Positions 1 through 9,872 of a stretch of DNA of 64,000 nt are shown in pieces. Source of the DNA: an uncultured Lactobacillus sp. (GTDB lineage: Bacteria > Bacillota > Bacilli > Lactobacillales > Lactobacillaceae); the NCBI GenBank assembly GCA_946482465.1, contig CAMLRL010000005.1:25006-89005 (forward strand), given 5' to 3'. Under the pieces are notes generated by a model. That model was given only the letters and a program-made list of their open reading frames with translations. It searched no databases and had not been told where the DNA came from. The position numbers were made by a program, and so were the translations under genes. The first letter of the stretch is position 1. Each line of letters opens with the position of its first letter.

Positions 1-329
<329 letters not shown>

Positions 330-338
330 TTTGTTAAT

Positions 339-368
339 AAAAAAGCCTGCAATATTGCAGGCTTTTTT
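339..368 (+). terminator. Rho-independent terminator of eno
   Basis: AAAAAGCCTGCAATATTGCAGGCTTTTTT perfect hairpin plus T-run right after the eno stop. Confidence 0.9.
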
Positions 369-405
369 AGTGTCAAAATTTTTAAAAATGTGTTTTTAGC
401 ATAAA

Positions 406-433
406 TTCAAGATTTAAACATCTATGCTATAAT
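406..433 (+). promoter_or_regulatory. Putative promoter for the anti-repeat/CRISPR transcript
   Basis: Extended -10 TGCTATAAT (425-433) with a weak -35 TTCAAG (406-411), 16-nt spacer. Confidence 0.5.
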
Positions 434-439
434 TTGAGT

Positions 440-578
440 AAACATTTAATTTCTAGAACTGCATTATCAGGACTAGATTAGCTACCTTTTTCCTGATATT
501 GCTGCAAAAACTGGTCGTGTTTCTAATATTATTTGGTTTAATTCAACCATATTATTAAAATTTGATGATAAAACATCG
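440..578 (+). ncRNA. Candidate tracrRNA-like RNA (5' hairpin 461-502, anti-repeat 519-561, nexus-like hairpin 562-579) upstream of the CRISPR array
   Basis: 519-561 GTTTCTAATATTATTTGGTTTAATTCAACCATATTATTAAAAT pairs with about 33/36 nt of the CRISPR repeat, including a terminal GUUUUA:UAAAAU lower stem followed by a bulge. Confidence 0.6.
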
Positions 579-1320
579 GTTTTAGATGGCTGTTAAATCG
601 ATGATGATTAGAACAAGTCCGTTGGATCAATGCCTTGTGCATGAGTTTTAGATGGCTGTTAAATCGATGATGATTAGAACTCATCTTGTGGTAATGTCGC
701 TGAAACAGTAGTTTTAGATGGCTGTTAAATCGATGATGATTAGAACGCAATAGCTTGACCAGGTGTATAACTAGCAGTTTTAGATGGCTGTTAAATCGAT
801 GATGATTAGAACGCAATAGCTTGACCAGGTGTATAACTAGCAGTTTTAGATGGCTGTTAAATCGATGATGATTAGAACTGATAATAATATCATTATCATA
901 TAAATCTGGTTTTAGATGGCTGTTAAATCGATGATGATTAGAACACCAATAATACCTAACGCACTTGATGATGAGTTTTAGATGGTTGTTAAATCGATGA
1001 TGATTAGAACAAGCAATTATTATCATACGAAATAACTGACGTTTTAGATGGTTGTTAAATCGATGATGATTAGAACGACGCTCACGACGTATGGAAAAAG
1101 GCAATTGTTTTAGATGGTTGTTAAATCGATGATGATTAGAACGATATCGTGTTGAGAATTGGTACTTAACTGGTTTTAGATGGTTGTTAAATCGATGATG
1201 ATTAGAACTGGTGAGTGAACCAACAGGCTTGAACAATCGTTTTAGATGGTTGTTAAATCGATGATGATTAGAACACGGCGGCTTCCGTGACAACGATGCT
1301 TACAGTTTTAGATAGTTGTT
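579..1320 (+). CRISPR. CRISPR array, type II-A-like repeat GTTTTAGATGG[C/T]TGTTAAATCGATGATGATTAGAAC; 11 intact repeats plus one degenerate terminal repeat, 11 spacers of 30 bp
   Basis: Repeats at 579, 645, 711, 777, 843, 909, 975, 1041, 1107, 1173, 1239 (exact 66-bp period); degenerate repeat at 1305. GTTTTAGA start is typical of Cas9 systems. No cas genes in window. Confidence 0.97.
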
Positions 1321-1356
1321 ATGCAAAAGCAAAAAGTTATATTAAAGTCACAATAA

Positions 1357-1386
1357 AAGGCTTGCTTTTAAAGCAAGTCTTTTTGT
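1357..1386 (+). terminator. Terminator downstream of the CRISPR array
   Basis: GGCTTGCTTTTAAAGCAAGTCTTTTTG hairpin plus T-run. Confidence 0.7.
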
Positions 1387-1542
1387 TTCGCCTATTTAAC
1401 AAGCCAATTAGAAAATACAATTAATACTAGTCTTTTACAATTTATTTTACGATATCGGTTCCCTAAATTCTTCATGCTAGATAACCAATAATTTTTAAAA
1501 TATGATACAGACAATGTGGCAAGATCTGCAAATTGAATAAAA

Positions 1543-1875
1543 CTAATTTTTATTTACTTTCTTATTGAATTCTCTCTTTGAAACATACTGGATTTTCTTA
1601 ACATACTGACCTCTATGATCAATTTTGATATATTGTTTAGAAGGGTCGTAACCACCTACTCTTCTGATCCTATATGGAAGTTTCTTACCAGTCTTGGCAT
1701 CATAAGCTTGAACGTTAAAATACTTTTGCGTATTCTTTTCTACTTGAGCATAACTTTTAGTTTCGGGAATTGTAAGATTGAAACGATCGAAAATTTCATT
1801 ATGAATAAAAAAGGGAAAACAAAAGAAAACTGCAATTGCTAACACAAAGACAAAAAATATTTTTCTAAAATTCAT
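1543..1875 (-). CDS. Small secreted/membrane-anchored protein, YxeA-like (DUF1093)
   Basis: N-terminal hydrophobic segment, then YAQVEKNTQKYFNVQAYDAKTGKKLPYRIRR..YIKIDHRGQYVKKIQYVSKREFNKK, YxeA-like pattern. Confidence 0.6.
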   Translation of the reverse strand: MNFRKIFFVFVLAIAVFFCFPFFIHNEIFDRFNLTIPETKSYAQVEKNTQKYFNVQAYDAKTGKKLPYRIRRVGGYDPSKQYIKIDHRGQYVKKIQYVSKREFNKKVNKN

Positions 1876-2092
1876 GATTACTCCTTATCCAATTTGGTTT
1901 TATAGATTTAGCAGATTAGCTAAAATAACTGCTTAATTTAAATTCTAAGTGTATTAATACACTAGTATACCTTTATTATACACTTTTCATAATTTTTTAC
2001 GAGTATAGCAACAATATCTATTTTATTTGCTAGCAAAAGTCAATTATTTATGCTACTTTAAGTGCAGTATTTAAAACTAAGGAAGTAGTAAT

Positions 2093-4366
2093 ATGTCTGA
2101 AAAATTTAAGGGTTTAAGCCAAGCCGAAGCAGATAAACTTCTTCAAAAAAATGGTTTAAATGAAGTTCCTGAACCTCAATTTAACTTTTTCAAAGAATTT
2201 TTATCTAAGTTATGGAATTTATCGGCCTGGATTTTAGAAGCTGCCCTCCTTTTGGAATGCATCTTAGGTAAGTGGATTCAATCATTGTTTGTGCTTTTAA
2301 TGTTGCTTTTTGCCGCATGGAACGGTGCTTCTAAGAAAAAGCAGTCACGCAAAGTATTAAACAATATTTCTCATAAGCTGACACCTTCTATTTCTGTCCA
2401 AAGAGACGGCAAGTGGCAAAATATTGATTCCAAATATTTAGTCCCAGGTGATTTAATCAGCATGCAGGCTGGTGATGTCCTAGCAGCAGATGTGAAATTA
2501 CTTGAAGGTCAGATCTCTACTGACGAAAGTTCGATTACTGGCGAGGCCAAGACAGTTCGTAAAAATCCGCAGGATACAGCTTATGCAGGTACAACTGTGA
2601 CTGAAGGAAACGGACTTGCTCAAGTCACAGCTACAGGAGCAAATTCGCGTTCTGGTAAAACAATTAACCTGATTAATAACTCAGCTGCTCCGGGACACCT
2701 ACAACAATTATTAACCAAAATCATTTATTACTTATGTATTTTAGATGGTATTTTGACACTAGTAATCGTTGTGGCATCCTTTTTCAAAGGTGGCGACCTC
2801 AACAATTTAATTAATATGTTGCCATTTTTAGCTATGATGTTCATAGCTTCCATCCCTGTTGCTATGCCCTCAACTTTTGCACTCTCAAATTCCTTTGAGG
2901 CAACCCGTCTAAGTAAAGAAGGCGTGTTGACATCAGATCTGACCGGTATTCAGGACGCAGCTAATCTTAATCTGATTTTGCTAGATAAAACCGGAACAAT
3001 CACACAAAATAAAACAGCTGTTGGTCAATGGACAAATTTTAGTTCATTAGATAATAACCAAGCCCTAGAATTGGCGGCTGCTGCCACAGATCAGAGAAAT
3101 AAAAAAATTATTGATACGGCGATTGATGACTATGTAACTGGTTTAGGACTTGAAGTGAAGACAGGTACTGACTTTACGCCATTTACTTCTAGCACCGGTT
3201 ATTCAATGGCCAATTATAACGGGCACAATATCAAGCTGGGGTCTTTTAAGCAGCTCTCGCTCATTGATCAGAATGCTAATGAAAAAGCTAAAGATGTTGA
3301 TTTTAGTGCGGGACGCTCAGTTGCTGTACTGATTGACGATAAATTAGCCGGGGTCTTTATTTTGCAGGATATGGTGCGTCCTGATTCTAAAAAATCTCTT
3401 GGTGAGCTTAAAAAGCGTGGCGTCAAACCAATTATGCTCACAGGTGACAACCAAAAGACTGCTGAAGCTGTAGCTAAGCAAGTCGATTTACAAGGCGATG
3501 TCATATCAATTCATGATTTTAATGATGAAACTGATACCAGTAAATTAGCGGGTATTGCGGATGTTTTACCAGAAGATAAGTTAAAGATGGTTAAGTTTTT
3601 CCAGAAAAAAGGCTATATCGTCGGCATGACCGGTGACGGTGTTAACGACTCCCCCGCTTTGAAACAAGCTGAAGTCGGAATTGCTGTTTCCAACGCGGCT
3701 GATGTTGCCAAACGGTCAGGAAAGATGGTTCTTCTAAATGATGGTTTATCTTCAATTGTTAAAATTCTTGACGCTGGTCACAGGGTCTATCAAAGAATGA
3801 CAACCTGGTCGTTAACTAAATTGGCGAGAACTGCGCAATTAACTATGCTTTTGACCTTCGGTTATCTTTTCTTTGACTATATCCCAATGGCGTTAAATGC
3901 AATGGTTATTTATACAATTATGAATAATATGGTCACAATGATGATTGGTACGGATAGGACTCACATTACCTATAAGCCTGAAAATTGGAATATGGCCCGC
4001 TTAGCCAAAATTGCTTTTTCACTTGCTTTCGGATGGACGGCTATCGGCATCTTTGCTATTGCATATCTTAATACTCACGGTTATAGTCACGGTACAGTGT
4101 CAACCATGGTCTACGTCTACCTTGTCTTAAGTGCTATGTTTATTATCTTAATCACCAGAACTAAGCGCTACTTTTGGCAGGATTACCCGTCAAAGGCTGT
4201 TGGTCTAACTCAGTTAGGTGATGTAATTTTAACAGTAATATTAGCTTTATTTGGCATAGCAATGACTAAAATTACATGGACGAATCTATTACTAACGTTC
4301 GCTGCTGCTTTGATTGCCGCTATCATTATTGACCTCTTTTATCAGCCGATAATGAAAAATCGCTAG
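2093..4366 (+). CDS. P-type ATPase, plasma-membrane proton-efflux-like
   Basis: DKTGTITQNK phosphorylation motif, TGES-like STDESSITGEAK, MTGDGVNDSPALKQAEVGIAVSNAADVAK. Confidence 0.92.
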   Translation: MSEKFKGLSQAEADKLLQKNGLNEVPEPQFNFFKEFLSKLWNLSAWILEAALLLECILGKWIQSLFVLLMLLFAAWNGASKKKQSRKVLNNISHKLTPSISVQRDGKWQNIDSKYLVPGDLISMQAGDVLAADVKLLEGQISTDESSITGEAKTVRKNPQDTAYAGTTVTEGNGLAQVTATGANSRSGKTINLINNSAAPGHLQQLLTKIIYYLCILDGILTLVIVVASFFKGGDLNNLINMLPFLAMMFIASIPVAMPSTFALSNSFEATRLSKEGVLTSDLTGIQDAANLNLILLDKTGTITQNKTAVGQWTNFSSLDNNQALELAAAATDQRNKKIIDTAIDDYVTGLGLEVKTGTDFTPFTSSTGYSMANYNGHNIKLGSFKQLSLIDQNANEKAKDVDFSAGRSVAVLIDDKLAGVFILQDMVRPDSKKSLGELKKRGVKPIMLTGDNQKTAEAVAKQVDLQGDVISIHDFNDETDTSKLAGIADVLPEDKLKMVKFFQKKGYIVGMTGDGVNDSPALKQAEVGIAVSNAADVAKRSGKMVLLNDGLSSIVKILDAGHRVYQRMTTWSLTKLARTAQLTMLLTFGYLFFDYIPMALNAMVIYTIMNNMVTMMIGTDRTHITYKPENWNMARLAKIAFSLAFGWTAIGIFAIAYLNTHGYSHGTVSTMVYVYLVLSAMFIILITRTKRYFWQDYPSKAVGLTQLGDVILTVILALFGIAMTKITWTNLLLTFAAALIAAIIIDLFYQPIMKNR

Positions 4367-4389
4367 TTTATTAGTTTAATAACGCAAAA

Positions 4390-4430
4390 GAAAAACCTGA
4401 TCTTGGACTTTTTCCAAAATCAGGTTTTTT
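4390..4430 (+). terminator. Terminator of P-type ATPase gene
   Basis: AAAAACCTGAT...ATCAGGTTTTTT inverted repeat. Confidence 0.8.
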
Positions 4431-4801
4431 AAGGTATACCGATGAGTTCCTGAATTTTCCATCACATCGGTAAAAAGGTTTTGTATATGCTATTTGGTAT
4501 AATAATTTAGAATAGGAAAAAATAGTTAAATTAATCAGGAAAATTAATTTTGGTAAGATGCGAGTCAACAGCAAAAATAAATTTTACTTTACCAATGACC
4601 CTCATATCCCCCCTTTCGCTGGTTGTACGTTTATAACAAATGCTGCATAAACATGTAGCAAGGGCTACATTATTTATGCTTTAAATTACATTCGTTATGT
4701 TTATCTTAATACATAAAATAACTAATGTAAACTATTTAGTTTTATTTTTTTACTATGAAATCAGTAAAACTTACTGATTTTAAATGTGTTAAATAACGAA
4801 A

Positions 4802-5320
4802 TTATTTCTTTAATTCGTACACGTATGAAGTTTCGTCTGGACGATAAACTCCGTGTAACAGACCCACTTTAGTAAATCCCATTTTTGCAATCAGATGTTG
4901 CATTGCTTGGTTATCTTCATGAGTATCAATTCTAATCGAATCTATATCAGCACGATTGTCTTTAATATCATTAATAACAGCCCGCAATAACTTAGTAGCG
5001 TAGCCTTTACCAGAATGCTGTGAGTGAATTGCCACACGATGAATAACTACATATTTATCAGTGTCGCATAGCCATTCACCATCTAAATGATCATAAATAT
5101 GATCCGGTCCGTCAACAATTGCAATTGCTCCAACCGTTTCTTGATCTTCAGATACGGCTAAAAACGCCCATCCATTTTCGATATCTTCTTTAATTTGTCC
5201 TTTTGACGGATATTCACCTTGCCACTGGTTAACACCGTGCTCAGCTAATTGATTAGCACCGTCTTTCAAAATAGCGATAATTTGGTCAAAATCGGCCATA
5301 GTTGCTTTTCTTAATTGCAA
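4802..5320 (-). CDS. GNAT family N-acetyltransferase
   Basis: LRKATMADFDQIIAILKDGANQ..VHRVAIHSQHSGKGYATKLLRAVI..IRIDTHEDNQAMQHLIAKMGFTKVG. Confidence 0.9.
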   Translation of the reverse strand: MQLRKATMADFDQIIAILKDGANQLAEHGVNQWQGEYPSKGQIKEDIENGWAFLAVSEDQETVGAIAIVDGPDHIYDHLDGEWLCDTDKYVVIHRVAIHSQHSGKGYATKLLRAVINDIKDNRADIDSIRIDTHEDNQAMQHLIAKMGFTKVGLLHGVYRPDETSYVYELKK

Positions 5321-5551
5321 ATTACTCTATTCTCCTTTTTTTGAAATACTGTACCATTATATATACTTGACCCCCAGCTTGTAAAAAATTTGCACTTCAA
5401 AAAAGAAAAAATTTTCATTTTTCAGTAAACGCTATCAAAAGAGTGTATAGACAGATTAACCTTATTTCAACTAATTTTTACTCAATAAAAAAAGCCTTGC
5501 TCTCACAAGACTTTTAACTCAAAAAACTAAAAATAGATCTTCGTTAGGCTT

Positions 5552-6493
5552 TTAAAAATCACTAAACAATTGATCAATTTCTTGATATTCTCTTGGTGAC
5601 AATTTAACTGACATGGTTTTCGCATTGCTTCTGACCTGATCAGCGTTGCGCGCACCCGGAATCACGACACTAATTGCTGGATTGGCCATATACCATGCCA
5701 AAACAGTCTGGGTAACCGTTGCCTCGTGCTTAGTTGCTATCTCACGGATACCCGCAATACCCTTGATTGCTCTGTCATACCGGTCTTCGTTAAAATCGCC
5801 CAGCAGTTGCCCACCGTCAGTGCTGTTAAACTTGTTCCAGTCATCAGCGCCGTATTTACCAGTTAACAGACCTGAAGCTAACGGGAAAAATGGCACAAAT
5901 GAAATATTTTGCTCATGTAAATATTCCAATTCTTCCTTAACAGGAGCGCGACGCACCAAACTATAATGATCCTCAACGATATCAACTTTCCCATTTTTAT
6001 TTGCTTCTTTAATTTGACTCAAAGAAAAGTTAGAAACACCAATAGCCCGAATTTTACCAGCTTTGCGAATTTCATCTAAAGTTTCAATTGCTTCATCTTT
6101 TGGTGTATTCTCATCTGGGTAGTGCAAGTAAAAAATATCAATATAGTCTGTCTTCAACCGTAAAAGTGCCTCATCAACGGCTTTTTTAATGAAAGCAGCA
6201 CTATTATTAGGTGCCATATTTTGTGACTTATCTTGGGCAGCCTTGGTAGCAATAATTACTTTTGAGCGATCATAATTTTGCAAGACATCCCCAATGATCT
6301 CTTCGGATCTGCCGAGCCCATAGACATAAGCGGTATCAAAAAAGTTGATGCCCTGCTTAAGAGCCTCGCGCAGTAAATCATATCCGTCTTCTTCATTTAA
6401 ATTTTTAAATAAGTTATGTCCCCCAACTTTATTTGTTCCTAAACCCAACTTAGTTGTGTAAACATCACTTTTGCCAATTCTGATTTTATCCAT
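5552..6493 (-). CDS. Aldo/keto reductase
   Basis: LGLGTNKVGGHN..GINFFDTAYVYGLGRSEEIIG..DYIDIFYLHYPDENTP..IRAIGVSNFS. Confidence 0.93.
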   Translation of the reverse strand: MDKIRIGKSDVYTTKLGLGTNKVGGHNLFKNLNEEDGYDLLREALKQGINFFDTAYVYGLGRSEEIIGDVLQNYDRSKVIIATKAAQDKSQNMAPNNSAAFIKKAVDEALLRLKTDYIDIFYLHYPDENTPKDEAIETLDEIRKAGKIRAIGVSNFSLSQIKEANKNGKVDIVEDHYSLVRRAPVKEELEYLHEQNISFVPFFPLASGLLTGKYGADDWNKFNSTDGGQLLGDFNEDRYDRAIKGIAGIREIATKHEATVTQTVLAWYMANPAISVVIPGARNADQVRSNAKTMSVKLSPREYQEIDQLFSDF

Positions 6494-6908
6494 ATCTATT
6501 CACTCCCAAAAAGCTATCATAGCTAACAGCTTATAAACTAGCGTTGTTTTTCTAAACTAATAATGCACTATAGGGCAAGGTAACAAACTTATTAGTAATA
6601 CTTTTTCAGTAAATAAATTATTTAGGTTAAGCCAATTTATATTTTCACTTAGCCACTACCTATCAACTAAAAAGTATGGTAACCTTTTTCAACAGAAATT
6701 ACTAAATTTAGCAAGCGCTTACAACAATGACAAAATTATACTTTAAGTAAATCTTATATCCTCCTCTTAAAAAAACGCTTTTATTACTACCGTAGTTGTA
6801 TTCTAACGATTATTAAAGCCAACAGTCAAGTAAGTATTCTTTTCTTATTAAAAATAGCGATTTTGTTAGTTGAACTGAGGCTAATAAAAAATTGTCAATT
6901 TAGCTACC

Positions 6909-6947
6909 AAAAAAGTTCCCCAGAGATTGACCCTCAGGGAACTTTTT
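6909..6947 (-). terminator. Terminator of apt
   Basis: AAAAAGTTCCC...GGGAACTTTTT inverted repeat. Confidence 0.75.
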
Positions 6948-6964
6948 AATTGCATGTTATTCAC

Positions 6965-7492
6965 TTAAGCACCGTGGTACTTAACTAATGAGTAAACATC
7001 AAGTCCCGGTAATTTTTCTTTTCCTTTTAGATCAGGTAATTCAATATAAAAAGCAGACCCAACTAATTCTCCACCTAAATTTTCAATTAGTTGCTTACAT
7101 GCTCTCAGAGTTCCTGCTGTAGCAAGTAAATCATCACAAACTACCACACGCTGACCTGGTTTGATTGCATCTTTATGTATTTCCAAACTATTAGAACCAT
7201 ATTCCAAATCATAAGAAGCACGTTCCACTTCTCTAGGTAACTTATGTGGTTTCCTAGCAGGTACAAACCCAATACCCAATTCGGTAGCTACGGGACAGCC
7301 AACTATAAAACCACGAGCCTCGGGACCTACAATGACATCAGCATTTTTGCTTTTAACATATTCTGCTAATTCATGAGTAGCTGCTTGAAACAATTTGCCA
7401 TCCTGTAAAATAGGAGTGATGTCACGAAAAATGATCCCCTTATTAGGGAAATCCTTAACACTTGCAATATGTTTCTCAAAATCGTTTGCCAT
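6965..7492 (-). CDS. apt: Adenine phosphoribosyltransferase
   Basis: [48 protein letters not shown]. Confidence 0.97.
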
Positions 7493-7592
7493 AAGAAGAA
7501 AAAACCTCCAAAACTTAACTTTCTTGCTAAAGCTTATCCGACCTTAATATTCTAACAGATTTCAAGATTAAAAGCACTAATAATGTGAAAAA

Positions 7593-9872
7593 TTAATGCT
7601 GCTTTAATTGCTCATTCACGTACATTAGCAATTTTTTACTAGGCATATTTCTTAATTCACGAATGAAGGCAATTTGTGACCTAGTAGCAAGATAATACCG
7701 TGAAGCCGTTAACTTACTTTTAGCAGGATGTTTAACAGCATAGATTTTATTATCTGCTATTTTAATAAAGTGCAGCTCAGAAAATACACGTAAAATAAAT
7801 AGAATATGATCATAACTCTGCTGCAGAAAAGGTCCAACTAAGCGATAATCCTCGATCGTTAAGCCAGGATGTGTATATACGTAGCGCAATACATTCTCAA
7901 AATCTGACTTCACAGGCATCTGCGTCACCGGTAATTGATCCAAAATAAACCGTAAGTAAAGCTGAGCGTAATTATTAGTCAATGCTGCATCTAATTCACT
8001 TTGATTATGGGGAACGTCAAGAAAGACGGCTACCTCGCCCTCACTATCATAATCATTAATCAGCGTAATTTTTGCGGGATCAATATCATATTTTGTAGAA
8101 GCAGAAATCTTATTTTTTTCGTCAAATAAAAGATACCTATCCGCAAAACCCATTACATATTTTTCAGATCGTAAATCAATAACTGGTGCAGGAACAGCTA
8201 ATTTAGGGGCTGCAAAAACAATACCTTTAATTATACCTTGCACTTTAGTTTGATTACGAAAACAATTTTCTTGCAAGCCAATAAACAGCTGATCAATGTA
8301 TGGTAACAAGATTCGAGTTAAGTGTTTTTTATTGAAACCTACCACATCCAATTTCTTATTGCTCTTACTGACAGTCAGTTTGATATGATTCTTATCTGCA
8401 CCCATGTAAAAGCAGCCAGTAATATCAGGATGCTTAATGCTAAACACCGGCTCCACATTATCTGTGCCAAAAGGACCCGCCAATTTAATTTCCGCAATAG
8501 TCTTTAGGTCAAGATTAGCAAACGGTAATTCAAAATCGTAATCTCTGATATTCTGGTTGTATGAACCATTAAAATTATTCTCAAAGGCTTTTCTTAAGGA
8601 AGGAATTTTTTCTTCAGTCATTGATAATCCGCAAGCAAAATCATGCCCACCAAATTTCAAAAATAGTTTGTGTTTTAAGGGATTTAGCGCATTAAAAATA
8701 TTATAACCGGCAACGGATCTTCCAGACCCCTTGATAATTCCAGCTTCATTTTTAGTTAAAACTATGGTAGGTTTATGAGTTTTCTCAACCACCTTATTTG
8801 CTACTAAGCCCAAAACACCTTCATGAAAATCTGGTTGATAAATTACCAGAGTTTGACTTCTGTCCCAGCCATTATTTTTAACTTGCTCAAGACATTCTTG
8901 AAAAACAGTTGCAGTCAGTTTTTTGCGTTCATCGTTTAATTTTTCAACTTTAGCAGCTATCTCATCGGCTTTTTCATCAGTATCACATAATAGTAATTCC
9001 ACTGCCAGAGAAGCATTGGCAAGTCTGCCCACAGCATTTAATCTTGGTGCAATATTAAAGCCAACATCAGTTTCGTCAATATGTCCTAATTGTAAACCAG
9101 CTTTTTTTATTAAAGCTCTTAGTCCCGGCCGCTCAGTCTCATTAAGCATTTTAAGGCCACGTTTTACTATTACATGACCTTCTCCTGACACCTTGACCAT
9201 ATCACCAATTGTGCCAATCATTGCTAATTCCAATAATTCAGGCATTGGCTCCTGCATTAACGCCCGACAAATAGTGTAGGCAACACCTGCCCCACAATAA
9301 TCATCAAACGGATATTTTTGTCCGGGATAATTGCAGTGTACCAAAGCGTAACAGTCAGGAACTTGCTCTTGAAATTTATGGTGATCTGTAATTATTGTAT
9401 CTACACCTTTACTTTTGGCAAAAGCAACCTCGTCAACCCCAGTAATACCGTTATCTACAGTAATAATCAGTTTAGTTCCATCTGCTACAATTTTCTTGTA
9501 GGATTCAAGATTTGGTCCATAGCCATCTTTAAAACGATCGGGAATGAAAAAATGTACGTCGGCACCTAAAATGCCCAGTGTTTCCACCATAATAGTGGTG
9601 GCAGTAATACCATCAGCATCGTAATCACCATAGACCGTTATTTTTTCTCCTGCATCAATTGCTTGATTAATTCTGTTAACTGCCTTTTTCATGTCATGCA
9701 TTAAAAAGGGGTCAGCCAAATCAGCTTCAGTGGCATTAAACCAATAATCTATTTTTTCCGCAGTATTTATTCCGCGCAAAGAAAGCAGCTTAGCCGTTAT
9801 TGGGCTAAGCTGATACTTCTCAATTATAGCAGGAGCTAATTCATCACCTTTACGTTTGCGCCATTCAATCAT
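7593..9872 (-). CDS. recJ: Single-stranded-DNA-specific exonuclease RecJ
   Basis: ITVYGDYDADGITATTIM, IITVDNGITG, ITDHH, NIAPRLNAVGRL, GSGRSVAGYNIFNAL. Confidence 0.96.
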   Translation of the reverse strand: MIEWRKRKGDELAPAIIEKYQLSPITAKLLSLRGINTAEKIDYWFNATEADLADPFLMHDMKKAVNRINQAIDAGEKITVYGDYDADGITATTIMVETLGILGADVHFFIPDRFKDGYGPNLESYKKIVADGTKLIITVDNGITGVDEVAFAKSKGVDTIITDHHKFQEQVPDCYALVHCNYPGQKYPFDDYCGAGVAYTICRALMQEPMPELLELAMIGTIGDMVKVSGEGHVIVKRGLKMLNETERPGLRALIKKAGLQLGHIDETDVGFNIAPRLNAVGRLANASLAVELLLCDTDEKADEIAAKVEKLNDERKKLTATVFQECLEQVKNNGWDRSQTLVIYQPDFHEGVLGLVANKVVEKTHKPTIVLTKNEAGIIKGSGRSVAGYNIFNALNPLKHKLFLKFGGHDFACGLSMTEEKIPSLRKAFENNFNGSYNQNIRDYDFELPFANLDLKTIAEIKLAGPFGTDNVEPVFSIKHPDITGCFYMGADKNHIKLTVSKSNKKLDVVGFNKKHLTRILLPYIDQLFIGLQENCFRNQTKVQGIIKGIVFAAPKLAVPAPVIDLRSEKYVMGFADRYLLFDEKNKISASTKYDIDPAKITLINDYDSEGEVAVFLDVPHNQSELDAALTNNYAQLYLRFILDQLPVTQMPVKSDFENVLRYVYTHPGLTIEDYRLVGPFLQQSYDHILFILRVFSELHFIKIADNKIYAVKHPAKSKLTASRYYLATRSQIAFIRELRNMPSKKLLMYVNEQLKQH

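Follow-up and report, generated by a model that had tools for sequence, protein, structure and literature searches.

The stretch of DNA analysed here (the window, 64,000 nucleotides) belongs to the draft genome of a bee-gut Lactobacillus, G000, which comprises 906,631 bases and is 54% complete. An earlier sequence-only reading had taken a leader segment in this window for a tracrRNA-like anti-repeat, reflecting either a fusion of tracrRNA and CRISPR array or the scar of a cas operon deletion. The relevant features, from the 3' end of eno onwards, are these:

3 to 329, + strand: 3' end of eno (enolase), the upstream neighbour, an open reading frame named from its sequence.
340 to 369, + strand: terminator-like hairpin of eno, AAAGCCTGCAATATTGCAGGCTTTTTT, recognised in the sequence.
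425 to 433, + strand: extended -10 promoter-like element TGCTATAAT, recognised in the sequence and the presumed start of a leader/array transcript.
461 to 502, + strand: predicted 5' hairpin of the leader RNA, TTATCAGGA...TCCTGATATT, from the MFE fold of leader plus repeat 1 in both the window and Lactobacillus helsingborgensis Bma5.
519 to 561, + strand: leader arm complementary to the repeat, the 'anti-repeat' of the earlier reading, from duplex and in-cis folding.
549 to 578, + strand: leader end ATTAAAATTTGATGATAAAACATCG, common to cas-linked type II-A arrays of the genus and including the reported 'nexus', from sequence comparison.
579 to 614, + strand: CRISPR repeat 1, of the GGCTG form, the predicted 3' arm of a leader-repeat hairpin, from sequence and folding.
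579 to 1320, + strand: cas-less type II-A array with 11 full 36-nt repeats (579 to 1274, period 66), then a degenerate terminal repeat from 1305.
1361 to 1385, + strand: terminator-like hairpin CTTGCTTTTAAAGCAAG TCTTTTTG, 3' of the array, from sequence; a scan gave its stem as minus strand.

The extended -10 element is unchanged in Bma5 and lacks a good -35, and a consensus promoter scan did not pick it up; transcription of the leader and array is presumed to begin there. Within the array repeats R1-R6 carry GGCTG and repeats R7-R11 carry GGTTG. This eno-side array contains the repeat pattern 11 times, and the draft genome has one further copy, on contig C4 beside a broken cas9. That remnant repeat is also of the GGCTG form, and both arrays of the window lineage therefore carried this variant. 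Spacers 3 and 4 (747-776 and 813-842) are identical, GCAATAGCTTGACCAGGTGTATAACTAGCA, reflecting either a spacer-repeat duplication or repeated acquisition. An Rfam scan of window positions 1-8000, a search of the array against phage records and a search of the leader against plasmid records each gave no match.

We compared the junction between eno and the array with that of related strains. While eno is present in 74 of the 75 genus genomes searched, the whole stretch 330-598 was matched in only one of them, that of Bma5 (G017), where the same junction is found at 98% and positions 519-578 are identical. As these two genomes are the only ones with the window leader and do not differ over 519-578, the leader itself provides no direct covariation signal. 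The Bma5 eno-side array (NZ_KQ034046.1) has the flanks and leader of the window but other spacers, indicating that spacers have been acquired behind this leader after the two genomes separated. Bma5 was sequenced by Ellegaard et al. (2015), who reported for L. helsingborgensis a second spacer region that lacks cas genes (PMC4449606). The cas-less second array of this species is thus already known, and the Bma5 eno-side array, which shares flanks and leader with the window array and differs from it in spacers, corresponds to it; the relevant passages of that paper make no mention of leader pairing. Relatives without the array have a similar hairpin 3' of eno but no counterpart to the sequence from just past this terminator to about 1555, which covers the leader and the array. 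They have small ORFs related to 1543-1875 (- strand in the window, a small ORF of 110 aa), followed by an ATPase gene. As the interval from eno to the ATPase gene holds two such stretches in these relatives, one of the two may have been displaced by the array.

The part of the leader nearest to the array is shared well beyond these two genomes. Window positions 553-599 are matched in many genomes of the genus, where they correspond to the leader end and first repeat of cas-linked arrays, and the motif ATTAAAA...ATAAAAnATCG/GTTTTAG recurs at the leader/repeat junction across the genus. The window junction reads CG/GTTT, the same as that with which Group 3 II-A leaders are reported to end (PMC5382924). 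This comparison recasts two elements that had been assigned to a tracrRNA. What was called a 'nexus-like hairpin' (562-579) is the leader end that cas-linked arrays have in common, and the 4-bp stem on which it was based is complete in 8 of 17 leaders and incomplete in the other 9; the UAAAAU of the supposed lower stem likewise belongs to this conserved leader end. The earlier reading was right that no tracrRNA tail or terminator precedes repeat 1, as 17 nt of conserved leader end lead directly into the repeat, and right that the anti-repeat-like segment is joined to the array, with which it probably forms one transcript. As DNA, the leader's terminal stretch (about 553-578) probably signals where spacers are integrated. 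With its shared leader end and degenerate far-end repeat the window array is of type II-A, and acquisition would occur at the leader-side repeat.

Upstream of this conserved end, 519-561 exhibits partial complementarity to the repeat on the same strand, its 3' end lying 17 nt before repeat 1. Its duplex with repeat 1 (the GGCTG form) has an energy of -18.2 kcal/mol, that with the Bma5 repeat -19.8 kcal/mol and that with the GGTTG repeats R7-R11 -22.3 kcal/mol, the last pairing end to end. As an isolated duplex this is matched by 0.05-0.65% of dinucleotide shuffles and by 0.7-2% of random window 43-mers, which is weakly beyond chance. Folding in cis gave a clearer result. Leader 514-578 plus repeat 1 has 30.8 expected leader-repeat pairs, as compared to 16.4 (sd 5.4) for whole-leader shuffles, none of which (0/2000) reached the native value. 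When only 514-551 was shuffled, leaving the leader end intact, 3/2000 shuffles matched with repeat 1 and 1/2000 with the GGTTG repeat, and replacing 514-551 by random window 38-mers gave no match in 2000 with the GGTTG repeat. The corresponding energies are less extreme than the pair counts (24/2000 and 47/2000 for repeat 1). Overall, the leader and repeat 1 pair in cis clearly better than chance, so the reported complementarity is real, on the same strand and adjoining repeat 1, although it does not amount to a tracrRNA. The claim that 33 of 36 repeat nucleotides pair was too high for repeat 1, where GGCTG mismatches the CAACC stem. This mismatch is found in all of R1-R6 (fold energy -22.5 versus -26.3 kcal/mol) and the leader has no compensating change, indicating that the pairing is not strictly maintained in the window genome. 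When two repeats were supplied, the 65-nt window leader was predicted to pair with repeat 2 and a 140-nt leader with repeat 1.

The tracrRNA of this lineage is found elsewhere. Bma5 has a locus (L022) with cas9, cas1, cas2 and csn2 plus a cas-linked array, and its repeats are nearly the same as those of the window. A complementarity scan of Bma5 revealed one strong non-repeat site, L022:8991-8956 on the minus strand (-37.1 kcal/mol), which is located between cas9 (to 8800) and cas1 (from 9051), is antisense to the array, and has an anti-repeat followed by more sequence 3' and then a T-run. The same cas9-cas1 placement antisense to the array was observed at the other cas loci of the genus where a tracrRNA was found, while alignment scanning of loci L025 and L029 gave no convincing candidate. 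The true tracrRNA of Bma5 pairs with the repeat at -35 to -40 kcal/mol as compared to -18 to -22 kcal/mol for 519-561. Thus, the window arm resembles the Bma5 tracrRNA anti-repeat in being complementary to the repeat, and is similar to it over about 33 nt, but it differs in pairing more weakly, in lying on the same strand as the array and in having no nexus, tail or terminator of its own. The proposal that 519-561 is itself a tracrRNA does not hold against a separate antisense gene with stronger pairing in Bma5. A simple cas operon deletion that left tracrRNA next to array is also unlikely, both because deletion alone would leave the two on opposite strands, as they are wherever a tracrRNA was found in the genus, and because Bma5 has the same junction together with an intact cas operon elsewhere.

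In the window genome itself, 54% complete, neither a tracrRNA nor cas1 was found, a search of the draft with HNH_4 gave no match, and a Cas9 family search recovered only a broken N-terminal remnant. The remnant (L026 7388-8265, on contig C4) contains the N-terminal part of cas9 with an internal TAA, is cut off, and is directly followed by a single degenerate repeat. Downstream is a glycosyltransferase-like gene, which is also found near the Bma5 cas locus. This broken cas9 looks like the outcome of a loss of the main cas locus, and a similar cas9 remnant has been reported in L. apis (PMC4449606).

Pairing between leader and repeat extends to the genus. In shuffle tests with repeat 1 alone, covering all arrays tested except the two eno arrays, 12 of 14 cas-locus-type arrays gave p <= 0.02; the hairpin was not significant in the cas-linked arrays of the window lineage, those of Bma5 and G064 (p = 0.28 and 0.49). 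A matrix of 19 leaders by 19 repeats showed that cognate pairs beat swapped ones (permutation p = 0.0008 for pairs and 0/5000 for energies, kinship being ignored). Genus-wide, leader and repeat thus appear to co-vary among these 19 arrays, by statistics that do not take kinship into account.

A further observation concerns csn2. In cas-linked arrays (L004, L007, L010, L014-L018, L020, L021 and others) a gap of 26-33 nt separates the end of csn2 from repeat 1, and the final csn2 codons, mostly encoding DLVDWY* or DLIDWY*, make up most of the leader arm and provide many of the leader-repeat hairpin pairs. When the csn2 end was recoded synonymously 400 times, <=5% of the recodings reached the native fold energy in 12 of 15 arrays, again ignoring kinship. 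The final csn2 codons of cas-linked arrays therefore look tuned at synonymous sites. A literature title search on an overlap between csn2 ends and leader hairpins returned no matching title.

Given the genus-wide pairing excess, the preference for cognate repeats and the published type II-A hairpin, we take 519-561 to be the leader arm in a hairpin of this kind. Specifically, the array beside eno is probably a second II-A array lacking cas genes, with 519-578 as the 3' portion of its leader, which folds onto repeat 1 as a leader-repeat hairpin. Computation shows the pairing itself, which exceeds chance, as well as the conservation of the leader end, a tracrRNA gene at a separate place in the closest relative and a different set of spacers in each of the two genomes. 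The leader would be co-transcribed with the array through 440-600, and its RNA would fold back on repeat 1 as a long bulged hairpin of 519-561 with 579-614. By analogy with published hairpins, repeat 1 would thereby be shielded from tracrRNA and RNase III, which would prevent the production of a useless crRNA from the leader (ecrRNA), and processing would be favoured at repeat 2, to the benefit of the newest spacer. The array would have to be served in trans by tracrRNA and Cas proteins. Two papers, both citing Liao et al. 2022, describe the II-A leader-repeat hairpin: according to one it suppresses ecrRNA (PMC12080349), and according to the other it also helps the first crRNA to mature (PMC13187072). 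The window array shares with the hairpin of these accounts its II-A repeats, a leader that abuts repeat 1 and pairs with it, and pairing that is significant relative to scrambled leaders. It differs in that it is cas-less, has its own leader and is not located behind csn2, and its effect on crRNA processing is predicted from the analogy. RNA sequencing in other lactobacilli has detected ldrRNA, an RNA of leader plus repeat 1 (PMC6070500), which comes from the leader/repeat 1 junction and is the RNA that the window hairpin would be expected to suppress.

How the arm arose is a separate matter. A tentative alternative, to which we give a low probability, is that the arm derives from the 5' half of a tracrRNA gene, captured and joined to the leader end via a shared TTAAAAT and now a remnant that pairs in cis only. 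Aligned with the Bma5 tracrRNA anti-repeat, the leader 5' of its conserved end scores 39 (0/3000 shuffles), higher than its score of 25 (p = 0.009) with the reverse complement of the repeat; the arm follows the tracrRNA at most bases where these two differ, and its best match among the genus tracrRNAs is that of its own lineage. However, the longer query 440-552 shows only a modest excess (37 versus 27.6 for shuffles, sd 5.0, maximum 45), nothing upstream of the arm clearly resembles a tracrRNA promoter region, and the tail and terminator are missing. Capture would also need an inversion, since tracrRNAs at cas loci are on the opposite strand to the array, and two anti-repeats to one repeat look alike without common descent. 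By this alignment, descent of the arm from a tracrRNA anti-repeat is possible; that such an anti-repeat was captured into the leader of the cas-less array and re-used as a hairpin arm is rather unlikely. If true, tracrRNA capture would be a route to leader-repeat hairpins when an array moves away from csn2. Derivation of the arm from csn2 ends was not supported (alignment p 0.06-0.6).

We regard it as quite improbable that the pairing merely reflects chance, with an AU-rich leader 5' of the conserved TTAAAAT end meeting an AU-rich repeat. The 0.7-2% of random window 43-mers that reach the energy of the isolated duplex, the uncompensated GGCTG repeats and the fact that the window leader is one independent instance are all compatible with chance, but the in-cis pairing, matched by 1-3 of 2000 shuffles of 514-551 and by none of 2000 random window 38-mers, is not readily so, and in the rest of the genus most leaders likewise pair with repeat 1 and are matched to the repeat of their own array. 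Finally, it is extremely unlikely that 519-561 serves the array as its own tracrRNA, enabling RNase III and Cas9 to act on the array with no separate tracrRNA, as its end-to-end pairing with GGTTG repeats (-22.3 kcal/mol) and the failure to find a tracrRNA in the 54%-complete genome are set against its lack of a nexus, terminal hairpin and terminator of its own, the same junction in Bma5 alongside a full, separate and stronger-pairing tracrRNA, and a sole detected cas9 that is a broken remnant.

With 519-578 read as part of a leader-repeat hairpin, what had appeared to be a tracrRNA-array fusion is placed among the known II-A leader-repeat hairpins. This points to a stand-alone array that has either retained or regained a hairpin of this type in the absence of csn2 upstream. 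In the cas-linked arrays of Lactobacillus, the last csn2 codons seem to serve both as RNA structure and as protein code, an overlap that is testable.
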